64,000 nt of DNA, taken from Treponema sp. CETP13 (GTDB lineage Bacteria; Spirochaetota; Spirochaetia; Treponematales; Treponemataceae). The notes under the pieces are model-generated. The model had not been told where the DNA came from. It searched no databases and saw only the letters and a program-made list of their open reading frames with translations. Location: positions 62,001 through 126,000 of the forward strand of contig MLPZ01000007.1 of NCBI GenBank assembly GCA_001885315.1, read 5' to 3'. Positions 18,088 to 26,923 of this stretch are shown here, one piece after another; within the stretch, counting starts at the first letter, position 1; every line of letters begins with the position of its first letter. A program made the translations under genes and the position numbers.

Positions 18088-19575
18088 ATGGCAAATATTC
18101 CAGAAGTAAAACTTGGTATTATAGCAGTTTCTCGAGACTGTTTTATTATTTCATTATCTGAGAGACGACGAAAAGCTGTTGTAGAGGCCTTTAATGCAAA
18201 AGCAAAAAATCTATATGAAGCAAAAACAACTGTCGAAAACGAAAAGGACATGCTAAAAGCTCTCGAAGAAGTTAAAAATGCAGGTTGCAATGCACTATGT
18301 GTGTTCCTTGGGAACTTTGGTCCTGAAACACCAGAAACTCAGATTGCAGAGTATTTTGATGGACCAGTTATGTATGTGGCAGCTGCAGAAGAAACAGGAA
18401 AAGATTTAATTAATGGGCGAGGGGATGCATATTGTGGTATGCTCAATTGCTCATACAATTTAGGTCTACGTAATATTCCTGCCGTTATTCCTGAATATCC
18501 TGTTGGAACAGCTACGGAAGTTGCTGACATGATGTTAGACTTTGTTCCTGTTGCACGTACTCTCATTGGACTTTCATCTCTTAAAGTAATTTCATTTGGT
18601 CCTCGTCCTCAAGATTTTTTTGCCTGCAATGCACCTATAAAACCTTTGTATGATATTGGAGTTGAAGTTCAGGAAAACTCAGAACTTGATCTTCTTGTTT
18701 CGTATAGAGAACATAAAGATGACAAACGAATCCCTGCTGTTGTAGAAGATATGGCAAAAGAACTTGGAACTAAAGGTAATACATATCCAGATTTATTGCC
18801 TAGAATGGCACAATTTGAACTTACTTTACTTGATTGGGCAGAAAATAATAAAGGTTCACGAGATTATGTTGTATTTGCCGATAAATGTTGGCCTGCATTC
18901 CCAACAGAATTTGGATTTGAACCATGTTACGTAAATAGCCGTCTCTGTTCACGTGGAATTCCAGTTGCTTGTGAAGTTGATATTTACGGAGCTGTTTCTG
19001 AATATATTGGTTATTGTGTGACTGACCATCCCGTTGCAATTCTCGATATTAATAATTCTGTTCCTCAAGATTTATATAATGAAGATATTAAAGGTAAGTA
19101 TAATTATGATTTAAAAGATACCTTTATGGGCTTCCATTGTGGAAATACTCCAAAAAGTTGTATGGGGACTTGTTCTCTTAAATTTCAGCTTATTCAAAAT
19201 CGTTTACTCGAAGATAGTGGAACTCCAGATATTACTCGAGGAACTCTCGAAGGTGATATTAAACCTGGTGAAATTACATTTTATCGATTGCAATCAACTG
19301 CAGCAGGTGAATTAAAAGCTTACATAGCAGAAGGAGAAGTTCTTCCTGTTCCAACTCGTTCTTTTGGTAGTATTGGTATTTTTGCAATTCCAGAAATGGG
19401 ACGTTTTTATCGTCATGTACTTATCGAAAAACAGTATCCTCATCATGGAGCAGTTTCCTTTGCACATTCTGGTAAAGCATTGTATACTATATTTAAGTAT
19501 TTAGGAATTAAAGATATTGCCTTTAATCAGCCAAAGGGGATGATGTATCCAAGTGAGAATCCTTTTGTTAAATAA
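18088..19575 (+). CDS. L-fucose/L-arabinose isomerase-family protein
   Basis: This 495-residue cytoplasmic protein belongs to the fucose/arabinose isomerase superfamily. Candidate metal ligands are Glu in ACEVDIYGAVS (about residue 298), Asp in AILDINNS (about 320) and His in FHCGNTPKSC (about 350). It is shorter than classical FucI of about 590 residues. The likely reaction is conversion of an aldose to a ketose. Because the operator is shared with a xylulokinase-like gene, the product may be D-xylulose or a related pentulose; that is inference. AAGGAG precedes the ATG. Confidence 0.82.
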   Translation: MANIPEVKLGIIAVSRDCFIISLSERRRKAVVEAFNAKAKNLYEAKTTVENEKDMLKALEEVKNAGCNALCVFLGNFGPETPETQIAEYFDGPVMYVAAAEETGKDLINGRGDAYCGMLNCSYNLGLRNIPAVIPEYPVGTATEVADMMLDFVPVARTLIGLSSLKVISFGPRPQDFFACNAPIKPLYDIGVEVQENSELDLLVSYREHKDDKRIPAVVEDMAKELGTKGNTYPDLLPRMAQFELTLLDWAENNKGSRDYVVFADKCWPAFPTEFGFEPCYVNSRLCSRGIPVACEVDIYGAVSEYIGYCVTDHPVAILDINNSVPQDLYNEDIKGKYNYDLKDTFMGFHCGNTPKSCMGTCSLKFQLIQNRLLEDSGTPDITRGTLEGDIKPGEITFYRLQSTAAGELKAYIAEGEVLPVPTRSFGSIGIFAIPEMGRFYRHVLIEKQYPHHGAVSFAHSGKALYTIFKYLGIKDIAFNQPKGMMYPSENPFVK

Positions 19576-19627
19576 TTAAAGGTAATTTTATATAGCGACT
19601 AATGTTGTATTTTATTAGGAACAAACA

Positions 19628-20659
19628 ATGGCAACTATAAAAGAAATTGCAGAAAAAGCGGGTGTTTCAAGAGGGACTGTAGACAGAGTCCTTCATAATC
19701 GCCTTGGTGTGAGCGCGGAAGTTTCAGAAAAAGTTCGCGCTATTGCAAACGAGTTGGGTTTTGTTCCTAATAAAGCAGGAAAGATTTTAGCTGCATGCAA
19801 ACAGCCTATTACAATTGGCTGTTTGCTTCCTGATATCGGGAATAAATTTTTTTCTGATATCATAGATGGATTTAATTTTGCAGAAAAAGAGTTATCAGAT
19901 TTTGGTGTATCTGTAAAGGTTGAACATATAAAAGGATTTGATGATTCAGATCACATAGCAGCCATAAAAAAACTGGCATCAGAAAAACATGCAGCCCTGT
20001 GTTTAACAACCCTTGATTTACCAGAGGTTCAGTCTGTTGTACAAGATATAATTCAGAAAGGAACCCCTGTAATAAGTCTTAATACCGATATTCCTGATAC
20101 TGGTAGATTATGTTATGTAGGTTCAAATTACTATCAGGCTGGAGCAACGGCAGCAGGTATTTTGTCTCTTATAACAAAAGAGCCTCAAAAAGTGTTAATC
20201 ATAACAGGGTCGTATCATATACGAGGGCATAACGAGCGTATTCAAGGATTTACAGAACGATTAAAAGAAAAAAATATTCCTTTTGTTAAAATGCAAACAG
20301 TTGAATCTTTTGATGATGATACACAGGCTTATGAACAGACTCTAGAAACATTAAAGTGGAACTATACTATAAATTGTATTTTTATTGCAGGAGCCGGTGT
20401 AGCTGGTGTATGTAGGGCAGTTTCAGAGTGTGGCCTAGAAAAAAAAATACATATTATTGTTTTTGACGATATACCCATAAGCCGAAAACTTCTAAAAGAA
20501 AATGTTATCGATTTTATAATATGTCAACAACCTTTTATGCAAGGATACATGGCAATAAAACATTTATTTGACTATCTTATTGATGGCAAGAAAGTATCTC
20601 CTCAAAATTATATTACAGAAACAGTTATTAAGATTGCAGAAAACATAGATACTGTCTAA
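19628..20659 (+). CDS. LacI-family transcriptional regulator
   Basis: The 343-residue regulator has an N-terminal HTH (TIKEIAEKAGVSRGTVDRVLHNR, residues 3-25), a hinge helix region ending near residue 60, and a periplasmic-binding-protein-like ligand domain (TIGCLLPDIGNKFFSDIIDG onward). It lies 52 nt downstream of the isomerase-family gene in the same direction. It is the best candidate to bind the CpG-centred palindromes at 17.37 and 41.72 kb. TTAGGAAC precedes the ATG. It is convergent with the pyrophosphatase gene, with stops 2 bp apart. Confidence 0.93.
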   Translation: MATIKEIAEKAGVSRGTVDRVLHNRLGVSAEVSEKVRAIANELGFVPNKAGKILAACKQPITIGCLLPDIGNKFFSDIIDGFNFAEKELSDFGVSVKVEHIKGFDDSDHIAAIKKLASEKHAALCLTTLDLPEVQSVVQDIIQKGTPVISLNTDIPDTGRLCYVGSNYYQAGATAAGILSLITKEPQKVLIITGSYHIRGHNERIQGFTERLKEKNIPFVKMQTVESFDDDTQAYEQTLETLKWNYTINCIFIAGAGVAGVCRAVSECGLEKKIHIIVFDDIPISRKLLKENVIDFIICQQPFMQGYMAIKHLFDYLIDGKKVSPQNYITETVIKIAENIDTV

Positions 20660-22396: not shown

Positions 22397-24070
22397 TTAT
22401 TTTCTTTTTAAGTATTTGAAGCTATCTAATGATACTGCAGCAATGATAATTAAACCTTTAAATACAAATTGAAGATTACTATCGATTCCTAAGAAGGTTA
22501 AACAATATGTTAATCCGGTAAAGATTAATACACCTGCAACAGCTCCCTGTATTTTACCAATACCACCAAAGAATGAGATACCACCAACAACACAAGCAGC
22601 TATAGCATCAAGCTCATATCCTTGTCCTGTACCAGCACTAGCATTTGCACGGAACGCTTCAAAGAAAGCACCAAATCCATAAAAAACACCAGCCATGATA
22701 AAAACGCCAAGTGTTACTTTAAATACGCTAATACCACTAACACTAGCTGCTTCTGGATTTCCACCAACAGCAAAAATATTTTTACCAAATGTTGTTTTAT
22801 TCCAAATAAACCAAGCTACAAAAATTGCTATTATAGCAGGTACAATTAGTTTTGGGAAAGTTACTAGTTCTCCATTAACAAAACCAAGTATCCAACGTCC
22901 TCCCAACACATCTTTAATTCCACTGTCTATAGATCCAACAGGGGTACCACTTGTACCAAAGAATAATAGACCGTAGATGATTAATTGCGTGGCTAATGTA
23001 GAAATAAATGGATGAATTTTAAGTTTAGCAGAGAAAAATCCTGCAAATGCACTAAAAGCAACACACAAAGTAATAGATAACACTAGAGCTAGTATTACAC
23101 GTGCTGTCATAGGCATAGCTGTAAAATCCCAAGGTCCAAGACTAAACATAGTAACAATATTGACGCTTGGATGAAGTATAAGTCCAGTTGTAACAGATCC
23201 TAAAGCTACCATTCGTCCAACACTAAGGTCTGTACCGGCTAATAATATTAATCCTGCAACACCAAGAGCATAAAACATACGAGTAGAAGATTGCTCCAAA
23301 ATTGTAAAAATATTTGGAAGTGTTAGAAGATGTCCATTACCATGCATAGGAGCTATAATAATACAGACTATAAAGAAAATTAAAATTGCAATATACAATC
23401 CGTTTTGTAGAAAGAATTTTGAAGCAGCAAAGTTATACAAATAATTTTTTACTGCTAATTGGGCATTTTCGCTAAATTTAGTTTTATTATTGCGTAGACT
23501 AATATTAGTTTGAATGTGGTTTACAAATTCGGTGTGTTTAGTGTCTTTGCAGGCTCCTATTCTAGAAGTAAATTTATTTTTTGCATCAAAGAGGGTGGCA
23601 TTTAGTTCGACTTTATTTGCATGCAACTCAAATTCTAAATCTTTTCCTGAATATTTTTTTTGAAGTTGCTCTTTTTTTTCTATAGAAGCTTTTTTTATGT
23701 TTTGAATTTCAGCAACATAATCTTTTTTTGCTTTTGCAATTTTTTCATTTTCAATTGCATTTACTTTTTTTAGATACTCATTGCTAATAGTGTTTGAATA
23801 TTTGACGGCTTCTTTAGTAAGTTTTGCATCCTTAGCCTTATTTTTTAAGGCAATTTCTTTAGCTACAATTATTTGTTTTTGGTAATCGGCAATCAGTTTA
23901 GCTTTTTCATCTTGCTCAATCATTTTGCTTTTTTTGACTGCAACAATCTCTTGTTTTAATTCTAAAACTTTGTTAACACCCTCGCAACGTAAATTATCTA
24001 GCTGGTTAATGTAATCATTAAGTTTTTTATCATCGTCTAAAGCTACTAGTTCTGTTTTATTTTTATTCAT
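22397..24070 (-). CDS. mglC: Galactose/sugar ABC transporter permease MglC with N-terminal coiled-coil extension
   Basis: The 557-residue protein has a C-terminal permease domain (about residues 220-557) with the usual hydrophobic helices of the RbsC/MglC family, including GTDLSVGRMVALGS and the EAA-like region GGNPEAASVSGI. The first 215 residues are unusual: soluble, rich in Lys, Glu and Ala, and predicted coiled coil, with no counterpart in E. coli MglC of about 336 residues as I remember it. The whole reading frame is open and AGGAG precedes the ATG at 24070, so the extension is probably real. It is the last gene of mglBAC, 22 nt after mglA. Confidence 0.9.
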   Translation of the reverse strand: MNKNKTELVALDDDKKLNDYINQLDNLRCEGVNKVLELKQEIVAVKKSKMIEQDEKAKLIADYQKQIIVAKEIALKNKAKDAKLTKEAVKYSNTISNEYLKKVNAIENEKIAKAKKDYVAEIQNIKKASIEKKEQLQKKYSGKDLEFELHANKVELNATLFDAKNKFTSRIGACKDTKHTEFVNHIQTNISLRNNKTKFSENAQLAVKNYLYNFAASKFFLQNGLYIAILIFFIVCIIIAPMHGNGHLLTLPNIFTILEQSSTRMFYALGVAGLILLAGTDLSVGRMVALGSVTTGLILHPSVNIVTMFSLGPWDFTAMPMTARVILALVLSITLCVAFSAFAGFFSAKLKIHPFISTLATQLIIYGLLFFGTSGTPVGSIDSGIKDVLGGRWILGFVNGELVTFPKLIVPAIIAIFVAWFIWNKTTFGKNIFAVGGNPEAASVSGISVFKVTLGVFIMAGVFYGFGAFFEAFRANASAGTGQGYELDAIAACVVGGISFFGGIGKIQGAVAGVLIFTGLTYCLTFLGIDSNLQFVFKGLIIIAAVSLDSFKYLKRK

Positions 24071-24092
24071 AATTTTACACTCCTAAGGATTA

Positions 24093-25586
24093 TCATAAAT
24101 ATTTAGCAGAAAGTTTTAACAGTTCTTCCTGGTTAGTTTCTTTTGTATTTACTATTCCGGAAAGTCTGTGATTTGACATTACAGCAATACGGTTTGTTAT
24201 ACCCAAAATTTCTGGCATTTCACTTGAAACAACAATTATTGTTTTACCTTGTTTAGCCATGTTTATGATAAGTTGATAGATTTCACTTTTTGCTCCAACA
24301 TCAATACCTCGAGTTGGTTCATCCAAAAGAAATATATCCGGTTTTCTTTCAAGCCATTTACCAATAATAACTTTTTGTTGGTTTCCACCACTTAACGAAG
24401 TTATCAAATCTTCGACAGAAACACATTTTGTATTCATTGTCGCGGCTTCTTTTTTTGCAGCTTCTAACATTTTTCGCTCGGACAAAATGCCTCCACTTTT
24501 ATAGCTATCTAGATTGGTAATAGTTGTATTAAATTTTATAGTCGCAGTAGCAAACATTCCATTTAATTTTCTTTCTTCTGTTACGAGTGCAAAGTTATGA
24601 TCCATTGCATCTTTACTTGAATTAAAACGCAGTTTCTTTCCGCCAACCATCATGGATCCAGAAGAAATTGTTCTAATACCAAATAACGATTCTAAAAGTT
24701 CACTCCGTCCAGCTCCAACTAATCCATAAAGACCGAAAATTTCACCTTTTTTTACGGTAAAAGAAATATCTTTAAGGTGTGGTTCATATTTTGTTGACAG
24801 GTTTCTGACCTTAAAATAATCTTCACCCACTACATTATCAACATCAGGGAAGCGTTTATCTAATGAACGTCCAACCATTGCAGATATTAATTCATTCATA
24901 GTAGTTTCTTTAGTTGATTTTTCTAAAACCATTTGGCCATCACGTAGTACAGCAACATCGTCACATATATCAAAAATTTCATCCATTTTATGAGAAATAT
25001 AGATGAATGAAATTCCTTTTTTTCGTAAATCACTAACAATTGAAAACAGTTTTTTTACTTCTCGTTCTGTAAGAGAAGATGTAGGTTCATCTAAAACAAT
25101 AATTTTTGCATCATAGGAAACAGCCTTTGCAATTTCTACCATTTGTCTTTGCGATACGGACATGTTTTTCATTACTGTTTTAGGATTAACATTCATATTT
25201 AATGATTTGAACAGTTGCACACTTTCTTTGTAAATCTGTACTTCATCAATTATTCCCATTCTTGTTGGGTATCGACCGAGAAAAAGATTATCAGTAATTG
25301 TTCGCTCTAAGCACTGATTCAATTCTTGGTGAACCATAGCGACACCATTTTCTAGTGCTTCTTTAGGTGTTTTAAAATTAATAAGTTTATTTTCTAAAAA
25401 AAATTGACCTTCATCTTGTGCGTAAATGCCAAATAGGCATTTCATCATTGTAGATTTTCCAGCTCCATTTTCACCCATCAGGCCTAAAACTGACCCTTTT
25501 TTTACAGTTAAGGTAATATTATTAAGAACTTTATTTTTAGCAAATGATTTAGATAAACCTTTTATTTTAAGTACAATATTATCCAT
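24093..25586 (-). CDS. mglA: Galactose/sugar ABC transporter ATPase MglA
   Basis: This 497-residue ATPase has two ABC domains. The first has Walker A GENGAGKST, signature MSVSQRQM and Walker B IIVLDEPTSSL. The second has degenerate Walker A GLVGAGRSE, signature LSGGNQQK and DIFLLDEPTRGID. This asymmetry is standard for MglA/RbsA-type ATPases. It works with MglC in the inner membrane and MglB in the periplasm. AGAGGG precedes the ATG. The separation from mglB by a terminator-like hairpin would lower its expression relative to the binding protein. Confidence 0.95.
   Translation of the reverse strand: MDNIVLKIKGLSKSFAKNKVLNNITLTVKKGSVLGLMGENGAGKSTMMKCLFGIYAQDEGQFFLENKLINFKTPKEALENGVAMVHQELNQCLERTITDNLFLGRYPTRMGIIDEVQIYKESVQLFKSLNMNVNPKTVMKNMSVSQRQMVEIAKAVSYDAKIIVLDEPTSSLTEREVKKLFSIVSDLRKKGISFIYISHKMDEIFDICDDVAVLRDGQMVLEKSTKETTMNELISAMVGRSLDKRFPDVDNVVGEDYFKVRNLSTKYEPHLKDISFTVKKGEIFGLYGLVGAGRSELLESLFGIRTISSGSMMVGGKKLRFNSSKDAMDHNFALVTEERKLNGMFATATIKFNTTITNLDSYKSGGILSERKMLEAAKKEAATMNTKCVSVEDLITSLSGGNQQKVIIGKWLERKPDIFLLDEPTRGIDVGAKSEIYQLIINMAKQGKTIIVVSSEMPEILGITNRIAVMSNHRLSGIVNTKETNQEELLKLSAKYL

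Positions 25587-25705: not shown

Positions 25706-26923
<1,218 letters not shown>

Follow-up and report, generated by a model that had tools for sequence, protein, structure and literature searches.

An N-terminal extension of a treponemal MglC sugar permease, predicted to be a helical rod, is conserved and encoded together with a circularly permuted MglB

What are some 215 residues doing in front of the permease domain of a sugar importer? We analyzed a 64,000-nucleotide stretch of a Treponema sp. CETP13 contig (here referred to as the window), in which mglC, on the minus strand at positions 22397 to 24070, encodes a 557-residue permease of the glucose/galactose type of ABC importer. To our knowledge, regulatory or structural domains at the permease N terminus are rare among ABC sugar importers, and with a rod that can be removed, the control of these importers could be tested directly. 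Treponema pallidum presumably obtains its glucose through TpMglB-2 and the cognate transporter, and the permutation of this binding protein has puzzled the field since 2016. A full-text search of open-licence papers returned no account of MglC, or of any sugar permease, with a coiled-coil extension. The paper on the TpMglB-2 structure discusses permease distribution, and the terms “MglC” and “coiled” were not found in its text (PMC4990184).

The window operon runs entirely on the minus strand, to which all coordinates below refer unless stated otherwise. mglB (25706 to 26905) is followed by mglA (24093 to 25586), which encodes a 497-residue ATPase with two nucleotide-binding halves (two Pfam ABC_tran matches), and, after a gap of 22 bp, by mglC, whose ATG at 24070 lies 9 nt behind an AGGAG Shine-Dalgarno site (24080 to 24084). 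MglC belongs to BPD_transp_2, with PF02653 matching residues 253 to 545 over profile positions 1 to 268 of 269 (111.2 bits against a gathering cut-off of 26.8; E value of 6e-32). The NCBIfam MglC equivalog model (NF007014) spans residues 216 to 557 at 284.8 bits, and because this is under its cut-off of 386, we assign the protein by score to a putative related subfamily rather than to the MglC equivalog. MglA likewise reaches 658.6 bits against an NCBIfam cut-off of 828, and window MglA, MglB, and MglC all score under curated equivalog cut-offs. Close to the operon, in the opposite orientation, are genes for a fucose/arabinose-isomerase-like protein and a LacI-type regulator (18088 to 20659, plus strand).

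The sequence-only reading of this locus had proposed an extension of about 215 residues ahead of a normal permease, and its coordinates proved exact, 23426 to 24070 encoding residues 1 to 215; the NCBIfam MglC match begins at residue 216. Residues 1 to 215 lie beyond all family models, and residues 216 to 557 (22400 to 23425) form the permease domain by Pfam and NCBIfam matches and by hydrophobicity. Models for RbsC, AraH, and other BPD_transp_2 permeases, which share the permease domain and a presumed N-in topology, match MglC only from about residue 207 to 225 and leave the extension uncovered. The E. coli MglBAC system has the same B-A-C gene order, a two-domain MglA, a BPD_transp_2 permease, and a sugar-binding protein of the same superfamily, but its MglB is not permuted and its MglC is unextended, with the permease starting from about residue 9. 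The reading had also held that E. coli-type MglC lacks the extension, and indeed only about 8 residues precede the same point. The corresponding stretch is 8 to 11 residues long in E. coli, Aeromonas, Fusobacterium, and Cetobacterium, and 11 to 49 in other unextended homologues (from Oscillospiraceae, Subdoligranulum, and the treponeme family).

One rival explanation is a wrongly chosen start codon, with translation from near residue 200 and an incidental upstream frame; in its favor, an internal ATG accompanied by a weak Shine-Dalgarno-like stretch is present in three relatives. We give this explanation almost no credence and reject it, given the Shine-Dalgarno site at the upstream ATG here, the similar sites ahead of the same start in the mglC genes of relatives, and the selection acting on the extension. 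In window mglC, ATG is absent between codon 51 and codon 241. Across 24 close pairs, the median dN/dS is 0.09 for the extension and 0.024 for the permease, and length differences among relatives preserve the reading frame. The extension is under purifying selection. An alignment with relatives had been suggested as a check, with absence from all of them as the outcome that would count against the extension; it is present in all 49 aligned relatives at a similar length (187 to 242 amino acids), with a mean pairwise identity of 46% compared to 84% for the permease. A search for related loci returned 34, nearly all from Treponema; among those that are complete, L047 alone lacks the extension.

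The same reading had described the extension as a charged, Lys/Glu-rich, heptad-like coiled coil, and this description survives in part. The extension is Lys-rich, but its net charge is only moderately positive (+12 here, with a mean of +7 in relatives); the charge is positive in 32 of 33 sequences and −2 in one. A Fourier search found no significant 3.5-residue hydrophobic periodicity (shuffle p of 0.12 to 0.63), so that the heptad claim lacks statistical support. Long helices are predicted, but the heptads of a canonical coiled coil are not detectable. AlphaFold2, given 26 sequences and run on the extension alone and on the full-length protein, places helices at residues 15 to 29, 32 to 47, 53 to 139, 142 to 192, and 199 to 213, followed by TM1 (pLDDT of 91.4 and pTM of 0.73 for the extension alone). 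The full-length run returned the same extension helices; its permease part was poorly modelled and was not used. Because AlphaFold2 models the extension confidently, we take it to be a folded helical domain, as predicted.

The confident long antiparallel helices of this prediction suggest a three-helix antiparallel rod plus a juxtamembrane helix, with the packing read from the turns rather than from coordinates. Helix A (residues 15 to 47, with a kink near 30; 23930 to 24028; pLDDT of 87 to 96) holds an LR(K/C)(D/E)G motif at residues 27 to 31, and L24, L27, and R28 are invariant in our alignment A2. Helix B (residues 53 to 139; 23654 to 23914; pLDDT of 93 to 98) would be the 87-residue backbone of the rod, with A88, V89, and N93 highly conserved at its middle. 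Helix C (residues 142 to 192; 23495 to 23647), predicted antiparallel to helix B, holds an LFDAK motif at residues 160 to 164; L160, D162, and N189 are invariant in A2, as is R193 just beyond its end, and L192 at the end of the helix is highly conserved. The juxtamembrane helix (residues 199 to 213; 23432 to 23476) is predicted to lead into TM1, and E201, Y210, and F214 are invariant in A2. In such a rod, helix B would be covered by helix A along its first half and by helix C along its second; by residue counting, the middle of helix B and the C-terminal end of helix C would come together close to the membrane. Two natural shortenings fit a hairpin rod of this kind, although their symmetry is approximate: the T. 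bryantii group (L036 to L046) has a clean in-frame deletion of ∼44 residues (about 32 to 75), nearly symmetric about the A/B turn, and the B/C tip is shortened in G031, a genome of T. pallidum size.

Searches for known domains or folds returned nothing that would identify the rod. The extension has no match among PDB sequences at an E value of 1, no Pfam family is common to more than 3 of 30 members, and we dismissed single-member Pfam matches (TINF2_N, Mitofilin, DUF7286, and others) that look like low-complexity helix noise. The predicted fold has no significant match in the PDB (best E value of at least 0.25), and a viral set gave one weak match, to a phage tail protein (E value of 0.0099; TM score of 0.29). 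The extension profile has a single match in the window genome, with no paralogue elsewhere in it. The extended MglC importer is a variant of a classic sugar transporter, and our searches turned up neither a published account of it nor a Pfam domain or solved structure for its extension.

The second unusual feature of the operon is its binding protein. Window MglB matches 5jx2 over residues 31 to 399 (phmmer; E value of 1e-178) and carries Peripla_BP_7 (PF18610) at its C terminus (residues 321 to 390 of 399). These matches mark it as a circularly permuted protein of the TpMglB-2 (“Type Ic”) kind, with putative roles in glucose binding and transport, and it is encoded next to the ATPase and permease genes, as in a Type Ic importer. 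Permuted binding proteins and related permeases are reported to occur in treponemes and Gram-positive bacteria, and glucose biochemistry is known only for TpMglB-2 (PMC4990184). The T. pallidum system Tp0684-Tp0686 likewise combines permuted TpMglB-2 (5jx2) with a cognate ATPase and permease, and we see no difference in kind: G031 (1,139,633 bp) has the same operon with an extended MglC of 531 amino acids, in which the extension is shorter (about 189 amino acids) and diverged.

The two features travel together. In fully read loci, extended MglC has MglA and permuted MglB as neighbors, the exception being the third, decayed copy of G116 (L141), and unextended MglC adjoins canonical MglB (L137 to L140 and L047). 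In L137, it is the N terminus of the canonical MglB that matches the Pfam model of the permuted C-terminal part, which is what a circular permutation predicts. MglC of the extended class occurs in 101 of 274 genomes of the window's family, a count that takes in contig-end fragments in which the extension itself is unseen. Both features occur in 95 of these genomes, extended-class MglC only in 6, permuted MglB only in 12, and neither in 161 (Fisher test, 6e-52, treating genomes as independent of phylogeny). Two of the 12 genomes with permuted MglB only (G041 and G271) were read directly, and each has an orphan permuted MglB gene with no MglA or MglC nearby (L132, 1143 to 2354; L133, 5252 to 6490). 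In unrooted trees of the MglC permease domain and of MglA alike, a single branch with 100/100 support sets all 19 extended systems apart from the rest. Extended MglC, permuted MglB, and MglA thus form a distinct subclass of Mgl importer; with a cytoplasmic oddity that travels with permuted MglB, it is the whole importer that stands apart.

The extension is also found outside the window's family. Its profile matches 17 genomes of another family of the same class (f13) and one genome, G423, from another family of the same order, and high-scoring matches sit in open frames of permease length (466 to 652 amino acids). A plasmid collection gave two near-full-length matches, in T. saccharophilum and in Agathobacter rectalis, the latter being the one plasmid locus that represents Bacillota here. 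The Agathobacter MglC is 549 amino acids long; hhalign aligns its extension with an E value of 2e-15, and BLASTP gives 44% over the full length. A helix-rich control, CfpA, gave no alignment to the extension (hhalign E value of 0.15). The CfpA query was picked from G031 by its length (678 amino acids) and position. We rejected a kinship between CfpA and the extension on this score; moreover, a search of the window genome found no CfpA. The whole extended operon lies on plasmids of 251,725 bp in A. rectalis and 381,873 bp in T. saccharophilum (L145 and L146) and is therefore potentially transferable.

No hydrophobic stretch of 19 residues precedes residue 216, and TM1 is flanked by three Lys/Arg residues on its N side and none on its C side, in line with the cytoplasmic placement first proposed from the positive-inside pattern. 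RbsC-type permeases have a cytoplasmic N terminus. The pattern and this analogy together support a cytoplasmic extension, on the face to which MglA, too, must bind.

We looked for partners by covariation of divergence (evolutionary rate) in 29 genomes, using partial correlations from which the permease, MglB, and RecA (the species control) had been removed. The extension covaries with MglA (partial r of 0.30 to 0.38; Mantel p of 0.001 to 0.01, in three subsets) and not significantly with MglB (−0.04 to 0.23). The method recovers the known contacts of the permease with MglA (0.49 to 0.71) and MglB (0.38 to 0.46) and is null for the noncontact pair MglA-MglB. An earlier run without the species control, on another genome set, gave an extension-MglA partial r of 0.74. 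However, the signal is only suggestive because RecA, which is no possible partner, also correlates with the extension (partial r of 0.24 to 0.46; p of 0 to 0.06), and covariation thus weakly favors contact with the ATPase, one of the partners first proposed. In MglA of the extended systems, we found no extra domain or obvious insertion, only 29 clade-specific residues.

Our best explanation, to which we give a probability of about 45%, is that the extension would be a cytoplasmic rod intrinsic to the transporter, probably acting on MglA. The permease presumably works as a dimer, and there would then be two rods per transporter beside the nucleotide-binding halves of MglA. The conserved membrane-proximal waist of each rod would pack on MglA (and on MglC) and would hold the ATPase in place or modulate its coupling, and the two arms would differ in length between species.

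The rod might instead dock some soluble regulator of the cytoplasm, distinct from MglA, a reading we consider unlikely, for example one in which HPr/HPr-kinase carbon control throttles uptake; a tether to a regulator was also among the first proposals. That control is common to spirochaetes and Firmicutes, the arms show the exposure and divergence that docking surfaces can have, and HPr kinase occurs in 20 of 21 extension-bearing genomes examined, including those of the flagella-less family f13. However, such presence says little because HPr kinase is common anyway; it is not found in the extension-bearing G753 (94% complete), and we identified neither a conserved phospho-site nor a docking motif. 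Carbon-control docking is therefore possible but unsupported.

Somewhat less probable still is a rod that lies flat on the inner leaflet, its Lys-rich side against the lipids, and acts as a BAR-like element or scaffold by which transporters are clustered or positioned. The positive mean charge is consistent with this, as are the conserved juxtamembrane helix ahead of TM1 and the 87-residue length of the longest helix, which exceeds the arm leading to the membrane and so precludes a rod that simply points away from the membrane. The PDB fold matches include F-BAR rods, but at E values of 0.35 and above they are as insignificant as all the others, and the charge is modest and even negative in one sequence.

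A tether to the spirochaete cytoskeleton, or to the periplasmic flagella or cell-shape machinery, had been among the roles first proposed; most members are treponemes, many of them with cytoplasmic filaments, and helical rods are frequent in cytoskeletal linkers. We now think this very improbable. In the 17 extension-bearing genomes of f13, flagellin, the MCP signalling domain, and CfpA (encoded by cfpA, tp0748; PMC2217670) were each found in none, and G247 and the window genome likewise gave no CfpA match. The family thus appears to consist of spirochaetes without flagella and chemoreceptors, and the extension also occurs in a Firmicute, which contradicts a tether to CfpA as a general role. 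The window genome itself is flagellated and belongs to the family of Treponema, yet CfpA was not detected in it. A link between glucose transport and chemotaxis signalling, in line with the proposal that TpMglB-2 serves chemoreceptors as a ligand-binding protein (PMC4990184), is scarcely credible as a general role given the 17 of 17 f13 genomes that lack the MCP signalling domain, although a lineage could use the rod in this way. CfpA filaments, motility, and chemotaxis are therefore not general partners, and because the extension persists where flagellin, chemoreceptors, or CfpA are missing, and also in a Firmicute, a function within the transporter itself is favored.

We also advance, tentatively and with somewhat less assurance than the rod acting on MglA, a new transporter module in which paired cytoplasmic rods would grip or gate the importer ATPase (or would lie on the membrane as a scaffold) and would have coevolved with the permuted binding protein, the importer being rebuilt on both faces of the membrane, in a form common to spirochaetes and gut Firmicutes.

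Some genomes carry additional copies of importer components. G057 has a second permuted MglB gene ∼1.5 kb upstream of the mgl operon (L136, 9072 to 10271), and G226 has two permuted MglB matches; a second permuted MglB could possibly make a two-receptor importer. The system is present three times in G116; in the decayed copy (L141, 4265 to 6771), MglA runs into a truncated extension and the permease is broken over two frames.
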